From: a virus
Reading direction: 5' to 3' (one strand)
Length of the DNA: 42,408 nucleotides
IMG/VR virus record: IMGVR_UViG_3300005253_000560
Location: 1-42,408 of that record
Shown here: piece after piece, positions 1,654-42,326 of the stretch
Position numbering within the stretch: the first letter of the stretch is position 1
How the letters are laid out: each line of letters starts with the position of its first letter
The notes under the pieces: generated by a model
The model's input: the letters and a program-made list of their open reading frames with translations, nothing else
Databases searched by the model: none
What the model was told of the DNA's origin: nothing
Position numbers and translations under genes: made by a program

Positions 1654-1934
1654 GATCCAGACCAGCATTAAAATTACCAATGCCGAGAGAGCTTACCACG
1701 AACAAGGTAGGTGACATACAGGACCATTTCCGCCTTTGGCGGGAAGAGATGGACAAGCAGTGGCGGCTCTTGTTCCAGGATGTAGCGGTAATACAAGTGG
1801 ATACCGACGGCTGGATTTACTTCGGGGGTAAAGACGTGACCGGAAGTGCAAGGATAGGGCTGGTCGGTACCGACTGGGTATGCCAGCATTATATAGCAGG
1901 CGCTTATGCGTCGAGATTAGGATCGAGCCCGTGA
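1650..1934 (+). CDS. Small tail-associated protein preceding fibre gene
   Basis: A 94-residue protein whose ATG overlaps the upstream TGA, so it is translationally coupled to the hub gene. The N-terminal half is charged and helical with W and Q (WREEMDKQWRLLFQDVAV). The C-terminal half reads DTDGWIYFGGKDVTGSARIG then VGTDWVCQHYIAGAY. This is the short beta 'display' pattern (W-x-YFG, R-I-G, W-x-x-Q) seen in small phage proteins placed just before fibre genes. It is coupled by GTGA to the next gene. Its role is not known; an assembly factor or tip element of the fibre is plausible. Confidence 0.65.
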   Translation: MRSRPALKLPMPRELTTNKVGDIQDHFRLWREEMDKQWRLLFQDVAVIQVDTDGWIYFGGKDVTGSARIGLVGTDWVCQHYIAGAYASRLGSSP

Positions 1935-3343
1935 AAAGACTTGTTTTTATAATTTTGCTTTTATCGACAGCTGCACAGGCGGACATTAAGGTCATGGGCG
2001 ATGGCGAGCAGTTGATATGGAGCAATAACTCCCAGACAGTCTCTATCAGTGCATCCAGTTCAATGTCCGCCAGTGTAGATTATTTATGGCCGGTGGCCGA
2101 CGCTGTCTCCGGCGGGCAGGCCTTGCTTTCTGATGGTTCGGGTCTTTTGAGCTGGGGTACGCCGACAACTTCGACGGCGCATAATATACTGTCTGGTACG
2201 CACGATGCCACTACCAACGCGGTCACAAGGGGCTCGATAATTTACGGCAATTCCACACCCAAGTGGGATGAACTGGTAATAGGGTCTTCCGGGACGATTT
2301 TGAGAAGTGACGGCACAGATGTAGTGTGGTCGGCGACAACTAACATTACCGCCCTGGGTACCATAGTGACCGGTACCTGGAACGCCACGGCCATAGATAT
2401 TTCCAGTTATACCAACCTTACGGTCACCGGTCCCATAACTTTGACTGACGATACTGTCGGAATTACGATAGCCAAGGACATTGTCGCCGGTACCGGCCTT
2501 TCGGGCGGTGAAGACAATGTCCTGCCGGGCGCGGACGCAGATACTACTTTGACTTTTGACGCTACTGAACTCGATGCAATTATCTGGTCGGACGGCGTCA
2601 ATGCTTCGAACGCCTGGACGTTCAATGTTTCCGGTACGGACCATACAATGACCGCCGGCAGTGCGAAAATGACTTTCAGTAACGAGGTCGAAGCCGAACA
2701 GCTCAGCTCTACCGATGATGCTACTATAGCAGATAATACTAACACCGGGAGTTTATACGCCGGTGCCGCGGGTGACCGAGTTGAAATAGATGCCGTTGGC
2801 GATGTTGACTTCATCGGTCAGTCAGGTTTGGCTTTCGGTGAAATATCAGTAGAATCAAACGCAGTTGAAACCACGATAAGCACACAAGATGTACCCGTCC
2901 AGGTAACCGTATTTGATACCGCCCGCCATTCCAATAACACAACCATCAGTATCGCGAACAGTGACATAACCATATTACAGGCAGGTCATTATTTAGTTAC
3001 TGTATCGGCGGCGGTCAATTCTGTAGCAGGGTTGGGTTCGAAACTCGAACTTAAATGCAGGGTGAATAATGGAAGTTTTGACGCCATTCCACACGCAGAC
3101 AGAAACCTCGGAGGGGGTGCAGCAGAGGCTGGTTCTATAACATTGTCAGGAATAGCCGATTTGGACACAGGTGATACGATCGAGATATGGATAATAAACG
3201 AAACGAATACAGCCAATTATGTAGTTGAAGATATTTCCATGGCCCTTGTTCAAATTGGCGGGCCGATAAGAGATACTATGATTTATGAGGATGGAGATAC
3301 GATGATTTATGAAAACGGCGACACTATGGCGTACAATATGTAA
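1931..3343 (+). CDS. Sec-exported tail-fibre-like protein with C1q/TNF-like domain
   Basis: The GTG at 1931 is preferred over the longer open frame from 1880 because it overlaps the previous stop (GTGA) and places a clean signal peptide at the N-terminus: K-R, a run of hydrophobic residues, and AQA before DIK. The mature ~450 residues are T/S/G/D-rich beta repeats typical of phage fibre shafts (for example the LGTIVTGTWNATAID type). Residues ~307-441 resemble a C1q/TNF-like jelly roll, with HSNNTTISIANSDITI, then AGHYLVTVSAAV and a closing strand MALVQIGG. The last ~22 residues are three near-identical GDTMIYE-type repeats. It should form trimers if the jelly-roll reading is right. A signal peptide on a virion fibre is unusual. 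The product may instead be displayed on the host surface. Confidence 0.75.
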   Translation: MKRLVFIILLLSTAAQADIKVMGDGEQLIWSNNSQTVSISASSSMSASVDYLWPVADAVSGGQALLSDGSGLLSWGTPTTSTAHNILSGTHDATTNAVTRGSIIYGNSTPKWDELVIGSSGTILRSDGTDVVWSATTNITALGTIVTGTWNATAIDISSYTNLTVTGPITLTDDTVGITIAKDIVAGTGLSGGEDNVLPGADADTTLTFDATELDAIIWSDGVNASNAWTFNVSGTDHTMTAGSAKMTFSNEVEAEQLSSTDDATIADNTNTGSLYAGAAGDRVEIDAVGDVDFIGQSGLAFGEISVESNAVETTISTQDVPVQVTVFDTARHSNNTTISIANSDITILQAGHYLVTVSAAVNSVAGLGSKLELKCRVNNGSFDAIPHADRNLGGGAAEAGSITLSGIADLDTGDTIEIWIINETNTANYVVEDISMALVQIGGPIRDTMIYEDGDTMIYENGDTMAYNM

Positions 3344-3352
3344 GGAGAGATT

Positions 3353-5179
3353 ATGAAAAAGCTTATTGTAATTTTAATCCTACTGATTTTTATAGCAACA
3401 ACACCAGCCGCAGAAGTGAAATGGACGGCCATAAGCGAATTAACTGCTATTAACGATGCAGATATTCTTGTGGTTGTCGATGACGTGGCCGGTACGCCCA
3501 TAAGCAAAAAGATAACCGTATTAAATTTTTTCGATACGATAAATTCGTCTTCAAAGCTCAGGGCCATCGTTACAGACGAAACAGGAACGGGGCTATTGGT
3601 ATTTGGGACATCCCCGACTTTTACGACTTCAATTATAATTACAGGAGCAAATGCCGATCCAAGTTTAACAGGTCAGATAGTTTACGATAATACAATCGCG
3701 GGTATTATGGACGGTGGCGCCCTTCGCTGGTTCGATGATGATGATTCGGTAAGACTCTTGGTTGATCTTGAAACAGATCCTTCCAACGATGATTATGTCG
3801 TGGCCTACGATTCAACAGCAGACGGCTTTTATATGAAGGCGGACGCCGACTCAGGCGGAAGTACGGCCTGGGACGATATAGCGGACCCGGACAATAGCGG
3901 CCTTACCACCATTACTTTTAACAATGCCGAATTATCGCTCCTTACCGGTAATAACGACGCCGCGGCTTCGTTTTGGATTCTACAGAACACTGATGCGGAC
4001 CATACCGGAGGCAATTTTTATCTTCTTGATCTCGATTACAGCGCCGACGACGGTGATGTCGATGCGGATTATATCAAATGCCAAGATTCAGGCGGTGTGG
4101 TATTGACGATTCAAGAGAACGGAAACCTTACGACTACGGGATTTCTGGCGACAGGTGCAGACCCCGCCGACCAAGGTGCGATACGCCTAAGTAACGCCAC
4201 TATCATAGCGTGGGAAGATGCGACAGAGACTACACTGACACATATTGATAATGTTGGTCTCCTTCTTAATCTGGAACTTGAAATAGACGGTACCCTTGAC
4301 GCTGACGGCATAGTTACTTTGGGTGACGGCGGTGACAATTTTTCGGTTGCTTCGGATGGTATTGATATCGATACCAGCGGCAATATAACAAACGCGGGCA
4401 CTATCGCTTCCGGGGTGGTTACGGTAACGGGTGTTATCAATACCTCCGTAGGGATTGACGGCGTCGGCGCCGTTGATTTCGATATAGGCAGCGGTGATAT
4501 ACTGGATGTGACAATTATAGAAAATGGCGGGACCTACATATTTGATAACGGCCTGACCGCCGTTGGTGAGGATTTGGGATCGGCCACGGCGGAGTGGAAC
4601 GATTTGTTTCTCAATGACGGTGGTGTGATCCAATTAGGTAATGACCAGGACGTAACGATCACACACGTCGCCGATACCGGCATACAGATGGAGTTGGATG
4701 ACTCCATTATGTTCGGCGATACGGCGGTATTCATTGAGTCCGACGATGATGGCTTCCTTGACTTGGACGCGGATACGGGGATCCGTCTAAATGCGCCCGT
4801 CACAATTACGACGAATATAAAAGGCGAACCCAAGCATCTAATATTTAATGTCTTTAATCCCAGTGGTGTTCAGAGTGACGATACCCAGGTATGTATCTGG
4901 CCCGAAACCGATGCAGCTTTAACCATAACCAAGATTACGGTTACTTTAGACGCGGCCGGCAATGAAGTCGCGGGCGACTTGAAATACGCGGATACGTTTA
5001 TAGGCCTGGCCAGCCCGGTGGTTATAAATGTCTTCGATACCTCTTCAGGCGTTTTGGAAGATGCTACTATAACCTCCGGCTCGGTTGCAGCGGGTAAAGC
5101 TATTTATATTCAATTCGATTCAGCGCCCAATGCGGCGATTACTCAAATGTGTATAGACGTTGTTTTTGATTATGATTAA
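3353..5179 (+). CDS. Sec-exported fibre-like beta-repeat protein
   Basis: A 608-residue protein with AAGGAGA about 5 bases before the ATG. It opens with MKKLIVILILLIFIATTPAA, a textbook Sec signal peptide. The rest is acidic, T/D/G-rich beta repeat with motifs common in phage fibre shafts, such as LTHIDNVGLLLNLELEIDG, LGDGGDNFSVASDGIDID and LGNDQDVTITHVADTGIQM. A 'LGSATAEWNDLFLNDG' segment near residue 410 recurs in marine-phage tail fibres. The last ~110 residues (after a NIKGEPKHLIFNVFNP turn) look like a separate beta-sandwich cap. It sits between two other exported fibre-like genes with short gaps, suggesting one co-expressed set. No enzymatic motif is seen. Confidence 0.75.
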   Translation: MKKLIVILILLIFIATTPAAEVKWTAISELTAINDADILVVVDDVAGTPISKKITVLNFFDTINSSSKLRAIVTDETGTGLLVFGTSPTFTTSIIITGANADPSLTGQIVYDNTIAGIMDGGALRWFDDDDSVRLLVDLETDPSNDDYVVAYDSTADGFYMKADADSGGSTAWDDIADPDNSGLTTITFNNAELSLLTGNNDAAASFWILQNTDADHTGGNFYLLDLDYSADDGDVDADYIKCQDSGGVVLTIQENGNLTTTGFLATGADPADQGAIRLSNATIIAWEDATETTLTHIDNVGLLLNLELEIDGTLDADGIVTLGDGGDNFSVASDGIDIDTSGNITNAGTIASGVVTVTGVINTSVGIDGVGAVDFDIGSGDILDVTIIENGGTYIFDNGLTAVGEDLGSATAEWNDLFLNDGGVIQLGNDQDVTITHVADTGIQMELDDSIMFGDTAVFIESDDDGFLDLDADTGIRLNAPVTITTNIKGEPKHLIFNVFNPSGVQSDDTQVCIWPETDAALTITKITVTLDAAGNEVAGDLKYADTFIGLASPVVINVFDTSSGVLEDATITSGSVAAGKAIYIQFDSAPNAAITQMCIDVVFDYD

Positions 5180-5193
5180 GGAAGGAAGGAATT

Positions 5194-6642
5194 ATGATTA
5201 AGAAAATATTAATTTTACTGATTATCCTGCTTTTAGGAACAAGTGCCTTCGGTCAATACGTCGCTCCAAATGAAAATACTGTGATTGTCTGCGGTGGACT
5301 CGGTACTATGGCCAACGCCGCACAACTGAACGGCGGGGGTGCGACTAAGGCCGCCTGGGATGCGGGGAGTCCATCTGATTTTATCAACACAAACGGCGGG
5401 CCGATAACGAATGATACTGGAGTTACGTATGACCACACTGGTAATGGAGAGGGCGAAAGACATCTAAGTAAAGCCGGTCTTGGTACGGGTGTAACTGTGG
5501 GAACACTGGCTTATGTCTCCGGTACAAATATCACAGCGGGAATTTATGAGATTACAGGTGTCCCTGATGGTGATGCTATTTTATGTGCCAACATCGTTGC
5601 AAGTGATGACAACGCGGATTCGGTTGTCAATGTTGGCGGAGCGATAGACACACTTCAGAATGTCTTTGATGAAGTTGCCAATAATGCCGCTTTGTTTAGT
5701 CGCTACATCTATATCAACGGAATTGTGAGTGATGCTGATGGCACGATTCCGGTTGGCGTGGCCATTGATATTGACGTGAACGTCGGAACTACAACTACAA
5801 TGGTAATCGTTGTGGGATATAATGTCACTCTGACGGCGGAATCTCAGGTTGTCTTACAGGCAACGGCTGATATAAATGCCATACTATCATTTTCCAAGGC
5901 AGCGGGTTTATATTGGCTTATCAGAAGTATAGATTTTGATGCGGCTGGGGCTGGTAAGGCGAATTATTGTGTTCTTGGTGTAAGTTCAATGGACGACTAT
6001 GTTGCGCTTGAAGACTGTATTTTCAGGGGTGCGGTTGACCAATCAGCTATATCAATGCTTGGTGATAATTGGTCTGTTTATAATTCAGACATATCCGGCT
6101 CTGGTGGCGGTTTTGTTTCCGGGGGTACAGACGGCATAAACAGTCATGTTGTTGGCTGCTCGATTCACGATAATACCGGCGACGGTATTCACATTGAGGC
6201 ATCCGGTTCTCAAATAATCAATAATATAGTTTATGACAATACGGGAGTAGGCATCAATCTGACGACTCAGATTACCAACACAGTTGTCATGGGCAATACC
6301 TGCTATATAAATGATGGCGACAATATGAGAATTCCGGCAGACGCTTACTATGGAATCGTAATCAACAATGTGTGTGTCGGCAGCACCGGGGGGTACGGAT
6401 TCAATCTTAACTCGCACCCATCCCTTGAACATATAATCTTTGGCTACAATCTTTCAGCAGGAAACAGCAGTGGACATACAGACGTTAGCGGCACTTTCGC
6501 AAACTTGGGGATAGGTGGAAATATAGCAAGTGCTCAATCAGCAGACGCAATATTTGAAACCATAACGGATGGTTCGGAAGATTTCACGCCGGAAACAGGA
6601 AGTGATTTAATTGACAATGCTCTTGATGCGGGGACCAACTAA
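5194..6642 (+). CDS. Sec-exported right-handed beta-helix protein (spike-like)
   Basis: A 482-residue protein with AAGGAAGGAA before the ATG. The leader is MIKKILILLIILLLGTSAFG, cut before QYV. Residues ~230-420 show the N/G/I-rich ladder of a right-handed parallel beta-helix (NosD/pectate-lyase-like fold): CSIHDNTGDGIHIEASGSQI, NNIVYDNTGVGINL, NTVVMGNTCYIND. It ends SDLIDNALDAGTN, the usual 'LID..DAGT' finish of secreted beta-helix proteins. Phage tailspikes that bind or cleave polysaccharide use this fold, but no catalytic acid cluster can be pointed to. The signal peptide argues for export by the infected cell. Confidence 0.75.
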   Translation: MIKKILILLIILLLGTSAFGQYVAPNENTVIVCGGLGTMANAAQLNGGGATKAAWDAGSPSDFINTNGGPITNDTGVTYDHTGNGEGERHLSKAGLGTGVTVGTLAYVSGTNITAGIYEITGVPDGDAILCANIVASDDNADSVVNVGGAIDTLQNVFDEVANNAALFSRYIYINGIVSDADGTIPVGVAIDIDVNVGTTTTMVIVVGYNVTLTAESQVVLQATADINAILSFSKAAGLYWLIRSIDFDAAGAGKANYCVLGVSSMDDYVALEDCIFRGAVDQSAISMLGDNWSVYNSDISGSGGGFVSGGTDGINSHVVGCSIHDNTGDGIHIEASGSQIINNIVYDNTGVGINLTTQITNTVVMGNTCYINDGDNMRIPADAYYGIVINNVCVGSTGGYGFNLNSHPSLEHIIFGYNLSAGNSSGHTDVSGTFANLGIGGNIASAQSADAIFETITDGSEDFTPETGSDLIDNALDAGTN

Positions 6643-27240: not shown

Positions 27241-27798
27241 ATGGCTAAAAAGAAAAAGCCCAGGAAAAAGAAAAACGGCAGGCCATCACAGTACAAAGCC
27301 CGATACTGCGGGATGTTGATAAGGTTTTTCGACATTGAGCCGTTCGAGGAGGTGAGAATCCCGCACTACGATGAGTCGGGTAAGGAGCACAAATCAGGCC
27401 GGCACAAAGGCGAAACGATTGTTACTCACTACGAAATCCAAAGGAACCCCAACCGGACGCCGACCCTGCAGCGCTTCGCCAAAAAAATCAAGGTTGGCAT
27501 ATCGACAATTTACCGGTGGCTCGATGAAAACGAGGAGACTTTTAAGGCGGAGTTTCGGGACGCTTTCACGTGTGCGCGCGCGTGTAGAAGGAGTTTTCTA
27601 ATAGAAAACGGACTTTGTGGATGCCACAGCCCCGCCTACGCGAAGTTCGTTGCGGTAAACTTAACTGACATGAAGGACACTCAAAAGCAGGAAGTGACAG
27701 GACCCGAAGGCAGGCCTATTCCGGTGAGCATAATTGATTACAGTACGGTTGATCTTGATAGCATAAAACCTAATGGAGATAAAGATGAACCGGCGTGA
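27241..27798 (+). CDS. terS: Terminase small subunit
   Basis: A 185-residue protein. ATG 27241 is chosen over the TTG inside the promoter -35. It has a lysine-rich N-terminus (AKKKKPRKKKNGRPSQY) and a helix-turn-helix at ~80-105 (TLQRFAKKIKVGISTIYRWL, DENEETF). Then comes the CGCHSPAYAKFVAVNLTDMK segment, typical of phage small terminases ('NPAFAIFVAKNLTDM'-like). It recognises the packaging site and feeds DNA to TerL. Its end overlaps terL by 14 bases, a usual arrangement. Confidence 0.8.
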   Translation: MAKKKKPRKKKNGRPSQYKARYCGMLIRFFDIEPFEEVRIPHYDESGKEHKSGRHKGETIVTHYEIQRNPNRTPTLQRFAKKIKVGISTIYRWLDENEETFKAEFRDAFTCARACRRSFLIENGLCGCHSPAYAKFVAVNLTDMKDTQKQEVTGPEGRPIPVSIIDYSTVDLDSIKPNGDKDEPA

Positions 27799-29359
27799 TT
27801 TTCTAAAGGCTGCGGCGATGGTAACGATATCACCAGCGGTAACGATACCCAATAACATTGTCAATAGTGGATTTCACTACTGGCAGTTGGAGTATCTGAA
27901 ATATTTCGATTTGGGTTTGGCCAGGTTTGGCATATTAGAATGGCACAGGAGGGCAAGGAAAACCACATTAGCGGTTAATCAATTAGCCAGGCAGGCCTGT
28001 AAGCATGCACATTGCAAATACGTTTATATCAGCCCCACCCAAGTCCAGACCAGGGCGCTAGTGTGGGACGACCCCAATATGCTGGCCAACGCCTTGCCGG
28101 ACAAACGGCAGATGAACTATAAGCTGAATGAGACCAAGATGCTGGTGACATTTGAAAACGGGTCCATGATAAAGTTTGGCGGTTCAGATAATCCAGATGC
28201 GCTACGGGGTATAGATGCTGTCGGTGTGGTTCCTGATGAATTCGCACTCATTGACCCGACAGTTTGGTCGAAAATTTTCAGGCCGATTATGTCGGGCGAA
28301 GTCAAATATAAACGAAAGAAAAGTGAAGGTGAAATATCCCCGGAGATGCGGTGGGCATTATTTCTTTATACCCCCAAAGGAATTAACCATGCGCCATTGA
28401 TGTTCAATATTGCTGCCTGTGTGGAGGACGAGGCCAAATTACCAAGACGCGGTAAAGCGGCTAAATGTAAGCCCGGCTGGTTCGCAAGCCGCCTGATAGC
28501 AGACGAGTCTGGTATTATCCCTCGCAAAGAGCTTGATATGATGCTTGAGGAAGTGGCTCAGGGCCTGATGACGATAGAAGATTACGATCAGGAGATGCAA
28601 TGCCGCAGGGTGACAGACGAGGAGCGGACCTTAATTACTTCGAAAATGCTGGCACGGTTAGAACAGATTGAGTGGGAAATTTACAGGGACTCTGCCAAGG
28701 AGATACGCAGGATTGTTGCCATTGAACCGGCCTTTGGAGGTGACTTATGCTGTATCAAGGCCTTTGAGAACGGCCGGGAGATTACACAGCGGGGCCTGCA
28801 CTTAAAATTAACTTCCGAAGTGTGCCACGTAGCGAAAGTAGTGGCGGAGGAGATAGATACCAGGAACTTCATTGTAGATTGTATCGGCGTTGGCAAAGGC
28901 GTTGCCGATTACCTGGCCGATGATGTAGCGGGTTATGACGTTCAATATTTCGATTCAGCGGCCAAGGCCAGAGTTAAAGGCGTTAAGTCCGATGTGATTG
29001 CCGATTGCAATTTGTGGGCCAACAAGAAAGCAGAGGCCGTCGCTTATGCCGCATCCCTGATTCGCAGGCTCAAAGTGGAGTCGATTGTCGATGCGGAGAC
29101 CAAACGTCAGTTAGTTGCGTTATCAAAGTATAAAGTGACCGGCAGCGGGCGGACGATCATGATTCTGAATGATGATGTCAAGAAAGCTATTGGCTGTTCG
29201 CCTGATAAAGGGTTATGCTGGATTTACGGTCAGTGGGGCCTGCAATATGTTGACCCCATTCGAAACGAAGAACGGGTTCGCTATGATGAGGCCATGAAGG
29301 ACCATAGAGAAAGAAAACGCCGGACCCGAAGGGGACGAAGACCGATGAGGATGGGATAA
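27785..29359 (+). CDS. terL: Terminase large subunit with Tat-like N-terminus
   Basis: A 524-residue packaging ATPase/nuclease. ATG 27785 has GGAGA five bases upstream. ATPase: a Walker-A-like HRRARKTT at 54-61 (variant lacking the usual glycine), adenine-side YVYISPTQVQTR, and Walker B VVPDE with D151-E152. Nuclease: IVAIEPAFGGD (E314, D320), IVDCIGVGKGVADYL and a late CSPDKGL. The first nuclease acid is usually Asp but is Glu here. The first residues, MNRRDFLKAAAM followed by VTISPAVTIP, match a Tat signal (R-R-x-F-L-K plus a hydrophobic stretch), which is odd for a cytoplasmic motor. Confidence 0.88.
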   Translation: MNRRDFLKAAAMVTISPAVTIPNNIVNSGFHYWQLEYLKYFDLGLARFGILEWHRRARKTTLAVNQLARQACKHAHCKYVYISPTQVQTRALVWDDPNMLANALPDKRQMNYKLNETKMLVTFENGSMIKFGGSDNPDALRGIDAVGVVPDEFALIDPTVWSKIFRPIMSGEVKYKRKKSEGEISPEMRWALFLYTPKGINHAPLMFNIAACVEDEAKLPRRGKAAKCKPGWFASRLIADESGIIPRKELDMMLEEVAQGLMTIEDYDQEMQCRRVTDEERTLITSKMLARLEQIEWEIYRDSAKEIRRIVAIEPAFGGDLCCIKAFENGREITQRGLHLKLTSEVCHVAKVVAEEIDTRNFIVDCIGVGKGVADYLADDVAGYDVQYFDSAAKARVKGVKSDVIADCNLWANKKAEAVAYAASLIRRLKVESIVDAETKRQLVALSKYKVTGSGRTIMILNDDVKKAIGCSPDKGLCWIYGQWGLQYVDPIRNEERVRYDEAMKDHRERKRRTRRGRRPMRMG

Positions 29360-30442: not shown

Positions 30443-30714
30443 AACTAATCCCAACGTTAGATCGGGTGGCTATAATCCGCGAGGAGAGGAAGAAGAAGAG
30501 CACGGGCGGTATTATTCTGCCTTGTGAAAAAGAGTCGAACTACGGTGAAGTGGTCGCCGTTGGTCCGGGCGGATTTAATATAGACGGTTCCCGGCGGCCA
30601 ATGTCGGTCAAGAAGGGTGACATAGTATTCTTTAAAGCAGACTACCATACCACAACGCCCGATAGTAAAGTGGTGATAGTCGATGATGAGGATGTTCTGG
30701 CGATAGTGAAATGA
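30439..30714 (+). CDS. GroES-like co-chaperonin
   Basis: A 91-residue protein; ATG 30439 overlaps the previous TGA. Cpn10 hallmarks are visible in order: LIPTLDRVAIIREERKKKST, then GGIILP (mobile-loop region), NYGEVVAVGPGG, VKKGDIVFFKADY, and a final VDDEDVLAIVK. Length matches Cpn10 (~95). Phage Cpn10 proteins, like T4 Gp31, cap host GroEL so that it can fold the phage capsid protein. Its place near the terminase, portal and capsid genes fits that role. The mobile loop is short, which may tune it to the host GroEL. Confidence 0.85.
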   Translation: MKLIPTLDRVAIIREERKKKSTGGIILPCEKESNYGEVVAVGPGGFNIDGSRRPMSVKKGDIVFFKADYHTTTPDSKVVIVDDEDVLAIVK

Positions 30715-30977
30715 AACGTAGAGAATTTATAAAATCAGCGTGCCTTGCGGTCTTGGGTGTAAGCTCGTTGGGAACTCCCGGAGGGCACACCAAAGCCGTT
30801 GAAAGTGCCGTGACGGTGGCAACGGGGATTAGTCCGCTGAAGGTTGACCGAGCACTTTTCCTGGGTGCTAAAGTTGGTTTAGGTGCATGGTCGTCGGACA
30901 CAGTTAAACCAAGAAATAAGGTGAACCCAGGGTTTCAATTAGTAGATATTGACTGGACACCATTATTAAATACGTGA
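30711..30977 (+). CDS. Small protein with Tat-like signal
   Basis: An 88-residue protein; the ATG overlaps the co-chaperonin TGA. It opens MKRREFIKSACLAVLGVSSL then GTPGGHTKA, a close match to a Tat leader (R-R-x-F-I-K, hydrophobic stretch, A-x-A-like end). The remaining ~60 residues (LKVDRALFLGAKVGLGAWSS, GFQLVDIDWTPLL) have no known domain. If exported it would be a small periplasmic protein. Together with the terL N-terminus it makes two Tat-like leaders within 3 kb. Confidence 0.6.
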   Translation: MKRREFIKSACLAVLGVSSLGTPGGHTKAVESAVTVATGISPLKVDRALFLGAKVGLGAWSSDTVKPRNKVNPGFQLVDIDWTPLLNT

Positions 30978-36779: not shown

Positions 36780-37979
36780 ATGGCAAGAACAAGTATTCTT
36801 AATGCGAATGAGCTGACGCAGAAGGCCTGGCCCCAAACGGTGTTCAGGATACAGTTAGAGAACATGCAGCTCTCGAACATGATGAGCGAAGGCAACGATA
36901 TGCCTATCGTCCTCGACCGGACACTGCAGGGTAGAATTGGGGACCAGGTCATATTCGAGCTCGATATGCCGCTGTCGAACGCCGGTGGTACCGACGACAG
37001 TGATATAGAAGGTGAAGAGGAGGCGATGAGCTTCTTCAACTTCCCCGTTACCATTCACGAGCGTAATCACGGGGTAAGAAGTGCGGGTAAGATGACGGAC
37101 AAGCGTTCTGCGGTCAAGATACGCTCCAAGGCCGCTTTTGCCATCGCCCGCTGGGCCGCGGAACAGTCTGAAAACGACATGATATGGGGACTCTCCGGGC
37201 TCGGCAATCAGAACACCTACGCCGGTGAAGGCACATCGGCCATTTTGACCGTGAACGAAAAGGCCCCGAGCGCCAGCCGTATCTTCTACGGCGGTCAGAC
37301 GGCGGCCGGGGCGGTCACCGTAGAGTCAAGCGACTCGGCCATCGCCGATTCAGCCGGTGACGATTATCAGAACTTCCTGTTCGGGACCAAGATAATCACC
37401 CGGATAAAGACCAAGGCGGTCCTGGCATTTCCGAAGTTCAAGCCGATTTTGATTAACGGCAAGCACATGTACGTGATAATCATTCACCCCCTGCAGGAAA
37501 CGGCCCTTATCGAAGAGACCGGGGCCGCCGGCTGGGCCCAGATCCAGCAGAACGCAAACGTACGCGGCGGCCGGAACCCGCTGTTCGGTAAGTTAGGTGA
37601 AGGCGAAGAGCGGATATTTAACGGTGCTGTGGGTGTGTGGAACGATGTGATTATTTACGTCTCCGAGCGTATCGAGACCCGGGTTGCCGGTGAGGTGTTC
37701 GATAACGGCGATACCATCGACGTCGGAATTGTAAGCGGGACTTCGAGGGTATGCCGGGCATTGTTCTTAGGAGCTCAGGCCGGACTGTTCGGCTGGGGCC
37801 AGCCCTGGAAGCGGTTGGAGAGGAACTTCGATTACTTCCGCAAGCCCGGTACCGCAACAGATGGGATCTATGGTTTCTCGAAGACCCGGTTCCGTGACCC
37901 GGGCGCAGGCCAGAGCACCAATACGGCCCAGGCAGACTTCGCGGTGTGGGTAGTAGATACAGCTGCCGAAGAGGCGTAA
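36780..37979 (+). CDS. Major capsid protein, N4-gp56-like
   Basis: A 399-residue protein. ATG 36780 (AAAGGAATAGC upstream) is preferred to the longer frame. Features of the N4-gp56/DUF4043-type capsid family: an N-terminal ARTSILNANELTQKAWPQTV, then LQGRIGDQVIFELDMPLSNA, EEEAMSFFNFPVTIHERNHG, VRSAGKMTDKRSAVKIRSKA and the helix AFAIARWAAEQSENDMIWGL. Later strands include VYVSERIETRVA-like and GTSRVCRALFLGAQAGLFGW. This is the HK97-fold shell protein. The nearby GroES-like protein may assist its folding. Confidence 0.88.
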   Translation: MARTSILNANELTQKAWPQTVFRIQLENMQLSNMMSEGNDMPIVLDRTLQGRIGDQVIFELDMPLSNAGGTDDSDIEGEEEAMSFFNFPVTIHERNHGVRSAGKMTDKRSAVKIRSKAAFAIARWAAEQSENDMIWGLSGLGNQNTYAGEGTSAILTVNEKAPSASRIFYGGQTAAGAVTVESSDSAIADSAGDDYQNFLFGTKIITRIKTKAVLAFPKFKPILINGKHMYVIIIHPLQETALIEETGAAGWAQIQQNANVRGGRNPLFGKLGEGEERIFNGAVGVWNDVIIYVSERIETRVAGEVFDNGDTIDVGIVSGTSRVCRALFLGAQAGLFGWGQPWKRLERNFDYFRKPGTATDGIYGFSKTRFRDPGAGQSTNTAQADFAVWVVDTAAEEA

Positions 37980-38085: not shown

Positions 38086-40050
38086 ATGAAGAAGATACTA
38101 TTTACATTACTGATTGTGGCGATGCTTGCCTGCCCGGCAATGGCACAGCGCTATCGTCAGCATCAGGTAACGATCGTAGATGAGTTCGGCAAGGCGGTGA
38201 CCAATATCGACCAGATTGAGATATTGGACGTCGGTACATCGGACACAACTACAATTTACGCCGACCGCGCTGGTGATTTGACTATGGTCAATCCGATTAC
38301 CACCAGCTCTACGAACTCGACTTTCGTACAGTCGTTAGGCCAGGTCCGGTGGTTCCAGAGGGCCCCGGGCTACAAAATCACTATCACTGAAAGCGGGGCC
38401 TCCCAGTCGTTGACTATTGACAACCAGGCCGAAGGTGACACCAGGTTCCCCTGGTACGTCAATTATATCGGTACGGCGGCGAGTCTTACCGTCGGGGACG
38501 ATCAGTTTCTTAATATAGGAAGCTCGAACGATTTCCGGCACGACTGGGACAATGGCAACACCCGGTACGTAATATTTTCGTCCGGGGACGGTGGAAGGCT
38601 GGATTTCGGTAAAGCGGCGGTCCATACCGACGTTTACTTTCACGCCGGGGACATAACCACGGATTACATCTTCTTTGACGAAGGCTCTCTGCAAATGAGT
38701 TTTGTGGATATCGACCTTCTTATCGACGATGAGGCGAAACTTCTTATCGGTGACAGCGGGGACGTGACTATCGAGTATGACGAGGGCAATAATGACCTTG
38801 ACATACTATCCACCTCAGCCCTGGATGAGATTTCTTTCGGTGCTACCGGAGACGGCTATGACCTCAAATGGTGGAGTACGACTGCCGGTGATTATGCCCT
38901 GTTCGACTATTCGGCGGACGCCCTGCTTTTAGAGGATTTAACTTTGGCACTCGGCGATGGCGAGCTGCTGTTGTTCGGCGATGCTATAGGCACGGGCACA
39001 ATGTCTCTTAGTGTGGCAACGGCCAAATTGTCCCTTTTGCAGGTTGTGGCCGATACGGGTACTTTTGATATTGGTGCATCAGGAACAGACGTGCCCACTG
39101 TATGGCACGGTGAAACAGCCGGGGCGGAGGTCACGTTCACAGGCGATACCGTAATAGTTGATGGTATCGATATGACCTTCAACGACGGTGATTTCCTGAA
39201 ATTCGGCGATGACTTCGACTGGACTTTCGATTCGTCCACTGCGACTCGGCTGGATATTATTCCGCTTACAACGAACGAAACTTCCGCTATATATATCGGA
39301 GCCAGCGAGGCAGGCGCAGACTTGAAAATATTCGGCACGGATTCGACCGATTATTGGGAATGGGACGCCACAGCGGACTTAGTAACAATAGTTGGCGATG
39401 CGGTGGCCTGGACCCTTACCGAGGCCGCCTCTACTGCGGTCAATATTGACATCACAGGTGCGGCGGGCGGATTTGATTTGGATACCACGAACGGCAATAT
39501 AGTTTTAACCGCCGGCGGAGGAGATAACGGCGATGTTACCTTAGTAGCCGCGGACATAATGACGTTTACGTCCGCAGATATCAAAATCTTCGACGGTGCG
39601 GCCGCTGAGACCTGGGTAATCGAAGGGACGGCTAACGGCTTTGAGACAAATGTTGTCTTTACCGACCCAACTGGTGCTGTGGTAGTAACGATTCCCGATG
39701 GCGGGGCCGGTACTTTGCTTGTGCCGACCTACCTGGCATATACGGCCAGTGGGAACATCGATGCGGACGAGTGCTGGGGCGGGGTACTGGCCAACACAGG
39801 GGCTTCAATTGATATTGTGCTGGACCTGCCAACAGCTGTTGCCGGAATGAGGTTATCGTTTACACTGACTGTAGCTTCTGATGTGGATTTGAATCCCTTT
39901 GCGGGCGATACGATTCTTGTTCTAACGGACTCAGCAGGCGATGCGATATCGAGCGCGGCGACGGCGGGTAACTCGATAACCCTGCACGCAGTTGACGCTA
40001 ATTCCTGGCTTGCCATATCCATTGACGGCACCTGGTCGGACGCTAATTAA
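38086..40050 (+). CDS. Sec-exported fibre/decoration-like beta-repeat protein
   Basis: A 654-residue protein; TTAGAAAGGTAAGATT precedes the ATG. The leader MKKILFTLLIVAMLACPAMA before QRY is a clear Sec signal. The mature protein starts with a small beta domain (YRQHQVTIVDEFGKAVTNID, APGYKITITESGASQSLTID). Then ~450 residues of D/G/T-rich beta repeat follow (LLIGDSGDVTIEYDEGNNDL, ILLFGDAIGTGTMSLSV-like, LKFGDDFDWTFDSSTATRLD), as in phage fibre shafts. The last ~90 residues are a separate beta domain (LVPTYLAYTASGNIDADECW). It sits directly after the capsid gene, where decoration or fibre genes often lie, but an exported product is unusual. Confidence 0.7.
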   Translation: MKKILFTLLIVAMLACPAMAQRYRQHQVTIVDEFGKAVTNIDQIEILDVGTSDTTTIYADRAGDLTMVNPITTSSTNSTFVQSLGQVRWFQRAPGYKITITESGASQSLTIDNQAEGDTRFPWYVNYIGTAASLTVGDDQFLNIGSSNDFRHDWDNGNTRYVIFSSGDGGRLDFGKAAVHTDVYFHAGDITTDYIFFDEGSLQMSFVDIDLLIDDEAKLLIGDSGDVTIEYDEGNNDLDILSTSALDEISFGATGDGYDLKWWSTTAGDYALFDYSADALLLEDLTLALGDGELLLFGDAIGTGTMSLSVATAKLSLLQVVADTGTFDIGASGTDVPTVWHGETAGAEVTFTGDTVIVDGIDMTFNDGDFLKFGDDFDWTFDSSTATRLDIIPLTTNETSAIYIGASEAGADLKIFGTDSTDYWEWDATADLVTIVGDAVAWTLTEAASTAVNIDITGAAGGFDLDTTNGNIVLTAGGGDNGDVTLVAADIMTFTSADIKIFDGAAAETWVIEGTANGFETNVVFTDPTGAVVVTIPDGGAGTLLVPTYLAYTASGNIDADECWGGVLANTGASIDIVLDLPTAVAGMRLSFTLTVASDVDLNPFAGDTILVLTDSAGDAISSAATAGNSITLHAVDANSWLAISIDGTWSDAN

Positions 40051-40059
40051 ATGAATTGA

Positions 40060-40087
40060 ACGGTGGGGCCCTGGCCGGCCTCACCGT
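40060..40087 (+). promoter_or_regulatory. 11-bp hairpin after the fibre-like gene
   Basis: ACGGTGGGGCC and GGCCTCACCGT pair (one G-U) around a 6-base loop, followed by ATCTTT. The T tract is poor, so this may be a weak terminator, a processing site or a guard on the downstream start at 40094. Confidence 0.55.
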
Positions 40088-40093
40088 ATCTTT

Positions 40094-40219
40094 ATGAGTA
40101 AGAGAAAGCGATTATCTATCTGGGAGCTTGTGGAATGCTGTGTTGGTATAACGGCGCTCCTGCTCTTTACATTTATCTTTTGGACGGGTCTTAAGACTGT
40201 AGCGGGATGGATATTCTAA
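40094..40219 (+). CDS. 41-residue single-TM peptide
   Basis: MSKRKRLSIWELVECC, then a hydrophobic helix (VGITALLLFTFIFWTGLKTV) and AGWIF. The stop overlaps the start of the O-antigen-ligase-like gene by 13 bases. The ribosome site is weak and lies next to the hairpin. It may be a small partner of that membrane protein. Confidence 0.45.
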   Translation: MSKRKRLSIWELVECCVGITALLLFTFIFWTGLKTVAGWIF

Positions 40220-41730
40220 AAAAGACAACCGAATACACACTTATCGCAGGGCTGGTATTGTGCGCTACGCTCTACAGTACCGAGACTTTGGTCAAGAGGG
40301 TGCCAGCGCGTGATATTGCCTGGTGCCTTACGGCCATTGTTTTGGTCTTAACTATACGCCGTATTGATTTCAGCGTTTTGAAACAATGGATATTCCCGGC
40401 CTTTGCCGGATATCTGATCGTCACTTTAATATCAGGGTACTTCGCGGCCAATTTCGGTGAATGGTATTACGATTGCTCCCGCACGTCCCTGATGATGGTC
40501 TATCTGTTTTTGGCTGTTTCGGTTATAGATAAGGACATCGCAAAGCCCATTATAATATTGGCCATTGGCCTTGGGGTTTACGGCCTGATGTTCTGGCCGG
40601 TAGCGACCATGGGTAATAAGAATTTCTGGGGCCAGGCCAACTTCCTCATGCTGGTATTATGTGTATATTCGATTTTTCACTATAAGGGTTTCTGGCAGCA
40701 AATAGGCCTTGCGGGCGGGTGGTTGGCTTTCGCTAATATTCTCGTCAGCCGGCCAAAGTCGGTGTGGCTGGCCTGTATCGTTTTTGTTCTGGCCGTTTCG
40801 GTTTTTTATCGCAAGGCATTTTTAATCGCGGTCGTACTGACAGTTGTTGTCGGTGGTGTGTTTTTAATATTCCCCGAAAAAGTGGGCCTGCCATCGTCCC
40901 TTACTATCAGGCTGGAACAGTGGCGGGAGACGCTGAGAATGACTGAGGACAATTTTATGGTAGGGGCGGGCAACTGGAAGATCGCCGTAAACGACTACGC
41001 CTATAATCTCAAGGCCAGTCCAGAGGCCGGGATGACGCAGTTTTTCAAATCGCCCCACAATGATTATCTGTGGGTTCTGGCGGAAAAGAGTATATTCGGA
41101 TTGTTCTTCTACATCGCGATTTTCGCACTTGGCTTGTTCTATGCCTATAAGAGCAGGAACGTATTTATCTTCGCCGGACTTGCGGGGTATATGACTATTG
41201 CTTTCTTCTCATTCCCACAGGAGAGGCCGTTTCCTTCGATGTTCCTGGTTCTGTTATTGGCACTGGCGGTTAAGGGTTATCATATCAAGAGCAAGTTTCG
41301 GTTCCCCAGGCCGGTTTTTTATATTGTGGCCCTGTCGATACTTGGCGCCGGGATGGTGAGTTTTCACGCCCGGTACGTTGGGCAGGTTAATTACAGAAGG
41401 GCGCGTTTTGAAACTACCTATCCGAGGGCCATTGAGCGGTTATCGAATATATCAGTATTTTCCACGCTCGACCATTACACAACCCCCTATTACTGGCTCA
41501 GGGCAAGCCTGCAGGCGAAGGCCGGCAACAAGGAGGAGTCGTTAAAAGATTATAAACTGGCGGTAGAGGCCAACCCGGGGAATATTTACGCCCAGTCCAG
41601 CCTGGGGTTAGCTCTTTACCAGGATGGTCAGGTTAACGAGGCGATCGAATGTTACGAAAAAGCGTTGGCCATAAGGCCGGATTTCGAGATAGCTAAATCC
41701 AATATTGCCATGATTAAAAAAGGGCTTTAA
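40207..41730 (+). CDS. O-antigen ligase/polymerase-like membrane protein with C-terminal TPRs
   Basis: A 507-residue protein. About ten membrane helices span residues ~10-400. A periplasmic-loop-like segment at ~235-290 reads RLEQWRETLRMTEDNFMVGA then FKSPHNDYLWVLAEKSIFGL, with H284-N285-D286. 'R...W...GxG... HNDYL..LAE.G..GL' is the Wzy_C/O-antigen ligase signature. The last ~80 residues are two TPR-like repeats (AKAGNKEESLKDYKLAVEAN, ALYQDGQVNEAIECYEKALA). Such enzymes polymerise or attach polysaccharide at the outer face of the inner membrane. Placed between capsid and adaptor genes, it would be made late. It could alter host surface glycans, or glycosylate proteins. Confidence 0.75.
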   Translation: MDILKKTTEYTLIAGLVLCATLYSTETLVKRVPARDIAWCLTAIVLVLTIRRIDFSVLKQWIFPAFAGYLIVTLISGYFAANFGEWYYDCSRTSLMMVYLFLAVSVIDKDIAKPIIILAIGLGVYGLMFWPVATMGNKNFWGQANFLMLVLCVYSIFHYKGFWQQIGLAGGWLAFANILVSRPKSVWLACIVFVLAVSVFYRKAFLIAVVLTVVVGGVFLIFPEKVGLPSSLTIRLEQWRETLRMTEDNFMVGAGNWKIAVNDYAYNLKASPEAGMTQFFKSPHNDYLWVLAEKSIFGLFFYIAIFALGLFYAYKSRNVFIFAGLAGYMTIAFFSFPQERPFPSMFLVLLLALAVKGYHIKSKFRFPRPVFYIVALSILGAGMVSFHARYVGQVNYRRARFETTYPRAIERLSNISVFSTLDHYTTPYYWLRASLQAKAGNKEESLKDYKLAVEANPGNIYAQSSLGLALYQDGQVNEAIECYEKALAIRPDFEIAKSNIAMIKKGL

Positions 41731-41732
41731 CT

Positions 41733-42326
41733 GTGACTATTGCAAAAGCAGATATCCTGACCGAAGTAAACGACAACCTTCAAACGGCCCTGACTGATAT
41801 CGATAAGTTTATCCAGAAGACTTTGGATGATTTGTCCGAAGAGGACCTGCTGGTCGATACCGATGCCACCCAGACACTCACAAGTGGTGATACCACCCTT
41901 AACGAGCCTACTGGCTTTCGGGCTTTGGTCAATATCGTCCTGACTATCACTTCAAGCGGTTCCGAGCAGTTCCCGTTAATGGGCTTGAAGGGCGGCCACC
42001 AGGAATATAGGAAATTGCGGCATAACGACAGCTCGACCGGCATACCCCGATGGTTCAGTAATTTCGATGAACAGTTCTTTTTATGGCGACCTGCCAACCA
42101 GGCGTACACAACGCTTATCGAATATTACAAGGACCATCCGCAGGATGTAAGTGATATCGAGTTCGGAGACAATTTTAGAAACGCCATTTACGCCGGTGCC
42201 ACATTTTACGCCGCCATGAAATTCAATCGGGCATCGGCATTAGGTCTATGGGGCCCGGTGTATGTCAACGCCAGACAGAAACGCATAGACTCCGTAGTAC
42301 ATATTCCGAGATTTGTGAGAGGTTAA
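41733..42326 (+). CDS. Head-tail adaptor (neck) protein
   Basis: A 197-residue protein starting at GTG 41733, two bases after the previous stop; AAAAAAGGGCTTTAAC is upstream. An N-terminal helix pair (AKADILTEVNDNLQTALTDI, IQKTLDDLSEEDLLVDTDAT) is followed by a beta part (TLTSGDTTLNEPTGFRALVN, IVLTI) and helices at the end (DNFRNAIYAGATFYAAMKFN). This matches the head-completion/adaptor proteins of P22-like podoviruses, which bind under the portal ring. The start of another tail gene follows at once. Confidence 0.7.
   Translation: MTIAKADILTEVNDNLQTALTDIDKFIQKTLDDLSEEDLLVDTDATQTLTSGDTTLNEPTGFRALVNIVLTITSSGSEQFPLMGLKGGHQEYRKLRHNDSSTGIPRWFSNFDEQFFLWRPANQAYTTLIEYYKDHPQDVSDIEFGDNFRNAIYAGATFYAAMKFNRASALGLWGPVYVNARQKRIDSVVHIPRFVRG

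Follow-up and report, generated by a model that had tools for sequence, protein, structure and literature searches.

When a membrane enzyme of glycan transfer is found encoded among the capsid genes of a phage, a simple question arises: does it act on the proteins of the phage or on the glycans of the host? The question is raised here by a 42,408-base IMG/VR virus record from an uncultured tailed phage, which is hereafter called, over its whole length, the window. Every gene-sized open reading frame (ORF) read in the window lies on the plus strand, and domain matches point to a P22-like portal, a major capsid protein (MCP) of the Phage_capsid_3 type and an SU10-type adaptor. The ends of the window appear nearly to meet, with some 0.9 kb missing, since in the sister phage L009 the gene that is cut at the right end is followed by a homologue of the left-end gene. 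The enzyme, a Wzy_C/WaaL-fold glycan transferase of 507 aa with C-terminal TPRs (40207-41730), is encoded downstream of the MCP (36780-37979; PF13252, 1.4e-39; phrog_334, 4.8e-54), between an exported repeat or fibre-like protein of 654 aa (38086-40050; signal peptide MKKILFTLLIVAMLACPAMA/Q; a 36% identical homologue in L009) and the head-tail adaptor (SU10_adaptor, 41733-42326; PF24175, 2.9e-11), the GTG of which is preceded by the enzyme stop codon at a distance of 2 bp.

This placement between a fibre-like gene and the adaptor is as the first-pass annotation had described it, whereas the start that it had assigned to the enzyme, 40094, turned out to be the ATG of a separate ORF of 41 aa (40094-40219, plus strand). 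The enzyme itself starts with the ATG at 40207, and the mini-ORF, which is read in a different frame and encodes one hydrophobic helix, overlaps this start. Similar mini-ORFs with a transmembrane (TM) segment are found at other viral enzyme starts, overlapping them at 7 of 11 loci vs. 7 of 146 other junctions (p 2e-6), and the small TM protein could be a partner subunit of the enzyme. In the gap that separates the exported gene from the mini-ORF there is a strong GC-rich hairpin (40060-40087) with only a weak T tail; terminator-like sites are no more numerous in the region than in shuffled sequences. The count of four exported fibre-like proteins in the window also holds, in that, besides the one upstream of the enzyme, visible signal peptides front the ORFs at 1931-3343 (downstream of the nozzle gene; GTG start inferred; VKRLVFIILLLSTAAQA, read from the sequence), 3353-5179 (MKKLIVILILLIFIATTPAA) and 5194-6642, the last being a beta-helix protein (Beta_helix PF13229, 2.1e-8), all on the plus strand.

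What kind of enzyme is it? With residues counted from the ATG at 40207, Pfam finds Wzy_C (PF04932) at residues 171-303 (E 8.8e-12; 45.5 bits vs. a cut-off of 31.7; 40717-41115, a stretch that includes the large loop placed by the structural model at residues 222-285) and TPR_2 at residues 462-492 (4.1e-12), within a C-terminal region of three TPRs (residues 428-506; 41488-41724). The motif R235..W239..G253-A-G-N256..H284-N-D is present, and R235, W239, the VGAGN stretch, H284, N285 and E293 are invariant in an alignment of eight viral homologues. Both the Wzy_C signature and the C-terminal TPRs noticed at first reading have been borne out. In an alignment of 35 rows, including 24 bacterial homologues, R235 (codon 40909-40911) is again invariant and H284 (codon 41056-41058) is conserved to at least 90%. 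By motif, H284 is the equivalent of H338 of WaaL and H349 of PglL; the residues matching R235 and H284 are important in the WaaL of Escherichia coli, are likewise conserved in PglL (PMC3643930) and are essential in the Wzy-beta of phage D3 (PMC4815439). The AF2 model (pLDDT 92.0, pTM 0.91) is that of a 13-helix membrane protein, the top Foldseek match of which is the WaaL structure 7tpg (E 9e-6); with a second aligner, 7tpg is matched over residues 1-361 of the model at Z 24.9 (336/403 aligned, rmsd 3.8), the next membrane protein being FtsW at Z 12.7. A BFVD fold search returned no viral protein at E <= 0.001. By domain, residues and fold, the enzyme thus belongs to the Wzy_C/WaaL-PglL superfamily, in agreement with its initial description as a glycan-transfer membrane enzyme, and its chemistry is likely to be the transfer of lipid-linked glycans; the acceptor is not fixed by these facts. 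When 13 helices are counted from an inner N-terminus, the large loop and the TPRs come to lie in the periplasm, and the charge counts of the short loops (positive-inside) agree with this topology; since the segment that follows helix 13 also carries positive charge, the periplasmic side of the TPRs is a prediction only.

Comparison with known systems brings out both kinship and difference. WaaL (7tpg) shares with the phage enzyme the fold over residues 1-361, the Wzy_C domain and the conserved Arg and His in the large periplasmic loop, but the identity is 12%, the phage enzyme has one helix more, the 13th, as well as three TPRs, and it is encoded in a head operon rather than in an LPS locus. 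The PglL-type protein O-oligosaccharyltransferases (PF15864 + PF04932) resemble it in superfamily and catalytic residues and also in neighbourhood: in 21 of 31 PglL loci the gene adjoins an exported candidate substrate (PMC3643930), and the phage gene likewise adjoins an exported candidate acceptor. The PglL_A domain, PF15864, however, was detected neither in the window enzyme nor in that of L009, and for this reason filing the enzyme as PglL was rejected. Phage-encoded membrane enzymes with Wzy_C are already known, namely the Wzy-beta of phage D3, a true polymerase, and the Wzy of epsilon15 (PMC4815439); these belong to lysogenic serotype-conversion units, whereas the present enzyme carries TPRs, is encoded in a head operon and shows co-variation with the gene of an exported fibre. 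It was not filed as a serotype-conversion unit either; the gene is located between MCP and adaptor, and a PHROGs scan of 20 window proteins (a subset of the ORFs of a record that is itself a fragment) revealed no integrase. Virion proteins of mycobacteriophages are glycosylated (Freeman et al. 2023, described in PMC12619734), a likeness to which we would add, as far as that description goes, the difference that here a lipid-linked, periplasmic-type transferase appears to be paired with signal-peptide proteins. What seems to be new is the head-operon clade with its exported partner: in the literature searched, from which subscription journals were mostly absent, no phage was found described as having an enzyme with Wzy_C among its head genes.

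Is the enzyme, then, a peculiarity of one phage? Full-length homologues were found in ten further IMG/VR contigs, all of the relatives being reached via the exported gene and small alignments only: single-protein scans of IMG/VR with the window enzyme, MCP or portal yielded no relative, and no record of the 'phages' collection matched the enzyme. The sister phage L009, found via the exported neighbour (MCP 78%, portal 76%, adaptor 72%), has its enzyme, 34% identical over the full length, in the same place, directly ahead of the adaptor, so that the gene is no recent moron of this phage. The capsids of the enzyme-bearing contigs fall into several lineages with no detectable similarity between them, and in every contig that is long enough an adaptor or a tail-tube-A-like gene is found downstream of the enzyme, directly so except in L016, where glycosyltransferase and methyltransferase genes intervene. 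The MCP-to-adaptor slot of the relatives often carries genes for glycosyltransferases, methyltransferases, formyltransferases, PIG-L and WbqC (in L009, two formyltransferase-like genes and one methyltransferase gene), which contradicts the initial assertion that glycan genes of this sort do not occur in late structural operons. The enzyme is absent from L011, a member of the window's own lineage, and from most complete BcepC6B-like slots; since it is missing from a relative, other than L009, with a 78% identical MCP, the gene is optional. Two contigs in which the fibre has no signal peptide carry a cytosolic-type glycan cassette ahead of the adaptor (L077, 3133-8037; L082, 6050-11248), composed of a GT4-FkbM fusion, methyltransferases, a PIG-L deacetylase and a WbqC-like protein. 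Ahead of its MCP gene, L017 encodes a fusion of APS kinase and nucleotidyltransferase (5139-6563) and, next to it, a sulfotransferase-like protein, which suggests sulfation cargo.

The viral enzymes form one clade with support of 100/100 against 35 bacterial homologues, and do so again (100/100) in a second sampling with seven Zixibacteria sequences added; the bacterial side of this comparison consists of one motif-limited scan and about 400 genomes, so that a nearer bacterial group may be absent from it. The branching within the viral clade does not track the capsid lineage and, hence, the gene has moved between phages. A recent moron insertion was rejected as the sole account, given that L009 has an orthologue and that the clade is confined to phages. 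The bacterial relatives belong to Bacteroidota, Fibrobacterota and Zixibacteria, and these homologues do not identify the phage host, for which host prediction gave no usable signal. Signal peptides beside the bacterial homologues are not significantly enriched over all loci, the pattern being present in a subset only. In L042, L043, L045, L047 and L055, bacterial homologues stand directly ahead of secreted proteins, which in L042, L043 and L045 bear T9SS sorting tails; these neighbours are candidate acceptors in Bacteroidota and Fibrobacterota. Some other bacterial homologues adjoin GT2 and sulfotransferase-like genes.

The gene immediately upstream of the enzyme encodes a protein with a signal peptide, as scored by a strict home-made rule rather than by SignalP, in 8 of the 10 assessable viral loci, or in 9 if L019 is counted, where the peptide is recognised by eye; the exported gene of L009 is located at a greater distance upstream, and L015 is cut short. 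Among the ORFs of the same contigs, 37 of 173 score positive as background (~20%; Fisher p 2e-4), and none of 84 ORFs in six cultured phages bears a signal peptide by this rule. The idea that the enzyme and exported fibre genes occur together in related phages thus stands as far as this enrichment and the co-variation described below are concerned, but not in the other direction, as the exported protein is often found without the enzyme. Specifically, the complete BcepC6B-like slots comprise three with enzyme and signal peptide, nine with a signal peptide and no enzyme, among them L096 with an exported protein of the beta-helix type, and five with neither; L011, too, has the exported protein without the enzyme. 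Given these slots, and given that the contrast in signal peptides between slots with and without the enzyme reaches p=0.053 only, the exported gene does not depend on the enzyme. In the BcepC6B-like lineage, the conserved N-terminal domain of the exported protein occurs both with and without a signal peptide, which, where present, is joined directly to the front of this domain. The exported protein of L018 was modelled as a beta-helix, with alginate epimerases, pectinases and phage tailspikes among the near folds, at weak Foldseek E-values (2e-4 at best); the exported proteins of the window, L009, L016 and L020 show no clear similarity to this type.

A further relation is that between the enzyme and the C-terminal part of the exported protein. 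L018 and L019, the MCPs and adaptors of which are unrelated, share 51% identity in the enzyme and 60% in the exported C-terminus, the exported proteins being similar from residue 61-62 onwards, where the N-terminal domain has ended. L021 and L092, which come from one metagenome, have 476 bp in common at 86%, and only within the exported C-terminus. Over seven beta-helix-type loci, matrix correlation between enzyme and exported C-terminus similarity gives r=0.63 (17 of 5040 permutations). Adjacency alone could carry the two genes together, with no bond of function between them; the adaptor, however, which is equally close on the other side of the enzyme, does not travel with it: in the six loci with an adaptor, the correlation is 0.69 for enzyme and exported C-terminus (3 of 720) and 0.12 for enzyme and adaptor. 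The exported fibre C-terminus, the mini-membrane protein and the Wzy_C enzyme thus behave as one mobile module.

How could such a module work? We favour, with a probability of roughly 0.4, the reading that the enzyme is an active WaaL/PglL/Wzy_C member of a phage-dedicated family, kept in the cargo slot of the head operon, and glycosylates the fibre-like protein that the phage itself encodes for export. At a late stage of infection, the enzyme would reside in the inner membrane, exposing its active-site loop and, going by helix count, its TPR domain to the periplasm, would take a glycan linked to host undecaprenyl-PP and transfer it onto the fibre-like protein, which is encoded just upstream and would be delivered by Sec to the same compartment; the exported protein might then decorate the cell surface or, upon lysis, the released virions. 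The exported protein is favoured as acceptor by the neighbour logic of PglL (PMC3643930) and by the shared periplasmic meeting place. Previously described Wzy_C enzymes of phages, together with the glycan-tailoring genes carried in sister slots, favour, instead, a glycan of the host as acceptor. In this reading, a close and somewhat less probable rival, the enzyme would remodel the host surface by polymerising or ligating an O-antigen- or capsule-like glycan in the manner of Wzy-beta or WaaL; the change of receptor would shut out sister phages or spare progeny re-adsorption to debris, and the exported fibre would be a mere neighbour. Phage Wzy_C polymerases that change serotype do exist (D3; the epsilon15 Wzy also has Wzy_C: PMC4815439), the cargo of related slots is formyl-, methyl- and sulfate-related or consists of glycosyltransferases, and GT2 and sulfotransferase-like genes lie beside some bacterial homologues; yet the enzyme is encoded in a head operon, flush against the adaptor, it is repeatedly paired and co-varies with an exported gene of virion type, and its neighbours in the window include no recognisable inhibitor/acetylase set of serotype conversion.

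The co-variation would be explained equally well if the enzyme and the exported protein matured one periplasmic polysaccharide and co-varied because both recognise the same sugar, the exported partner being a carbohydrate-active beta-helix, such as an epimerase, a lyase or a tailspike-like protein. The folds nearest to the L018 model are of this kind, but the Foldseek values are weak and four exported proteins, including that of the window, are not clearly similar to it, and we consider such a pair improbable. The variability of the slot and the absence of the enzyme from L011 and from most complete BcepC6B-like slots might even suggest that mobile genes simply gather here and that the enzyme, as a moron that is either selfish or incidental, has no role in the phage cycle; full-length ORFs with catalytic residues invariant across deep divergence, the phage-only clade and the repeated retention of the gene in the same slot in unrelated phages make this very improbable. 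Returning to glycosylation of the exported fibre, one could envisage a more elaborate and, on the whole, unlikely scheme in which some phages glycosylate proteins in the periplasm with a module that they themselves encode, made up of a phage-dedicated oligosaccharyltransferase of the WaaL fold, its mini-membrane partner and a fibre exported by Sec: the N-terminus of the fibre, specific to the capsid lineage, would anchor it to virions after lysis, giving them a coat of sugars that had been added outside the cytoplasm, and its C-terminus would be swapped jointly with the enzyme between unrelated capsids.

The known phage Wzy_C enzymes change the host serotype during lysogeny, whereas the head-operon clade points to a late function, which could be either glycosylation of proteins that the phage itself exports or a coating of the host. 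The clade is confined to phages, is found among the head genes of unrelated podoviruses and varies in step with a domain of the exported fibre, from which it may be supposed that, at a late stage of infection, some phages add sugars to the surface of the host or to exported proteins that they encode. With a partner gene and a candidate acceptor domain named, the reason for signal peptides on virion-type genes becomes testable.

Signal-like N-termini are not confined to fibres in these phages. TAT-like N-termini (RRDFLK, RREFIK, RRLFLK) are seen in the window (27773-29359 and 30711-30977), in L075 (1928-2290) and in L076 (1724-2267); the set includes the large terminase subunit (TerL) of the window, whereas the sister TerL in L009 has no such N-terminus. 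Such a signal is puzzling on TerL, which handles DNA in the cytoplasm. Signal peptides of the Sec type front genes for tail nozzle or tail proteins in L025 (9435-12668), L016 (9320-11392) and L030 (11494-12495), the homologues of which in other phages are without them. With signal-like N-termini on TerL and nozzle, proteins expected in the cytoplasm, an export signal may mislead. Signal-peptide ORFs number 36 of 306 in L075-L106, which belong to this phage group, vs. 7 of 184 in the distant relatives L107-L125 (six of these in L107) and none in the six cultured relatives, and their frequency in this phage group is perhaps linked to the host.
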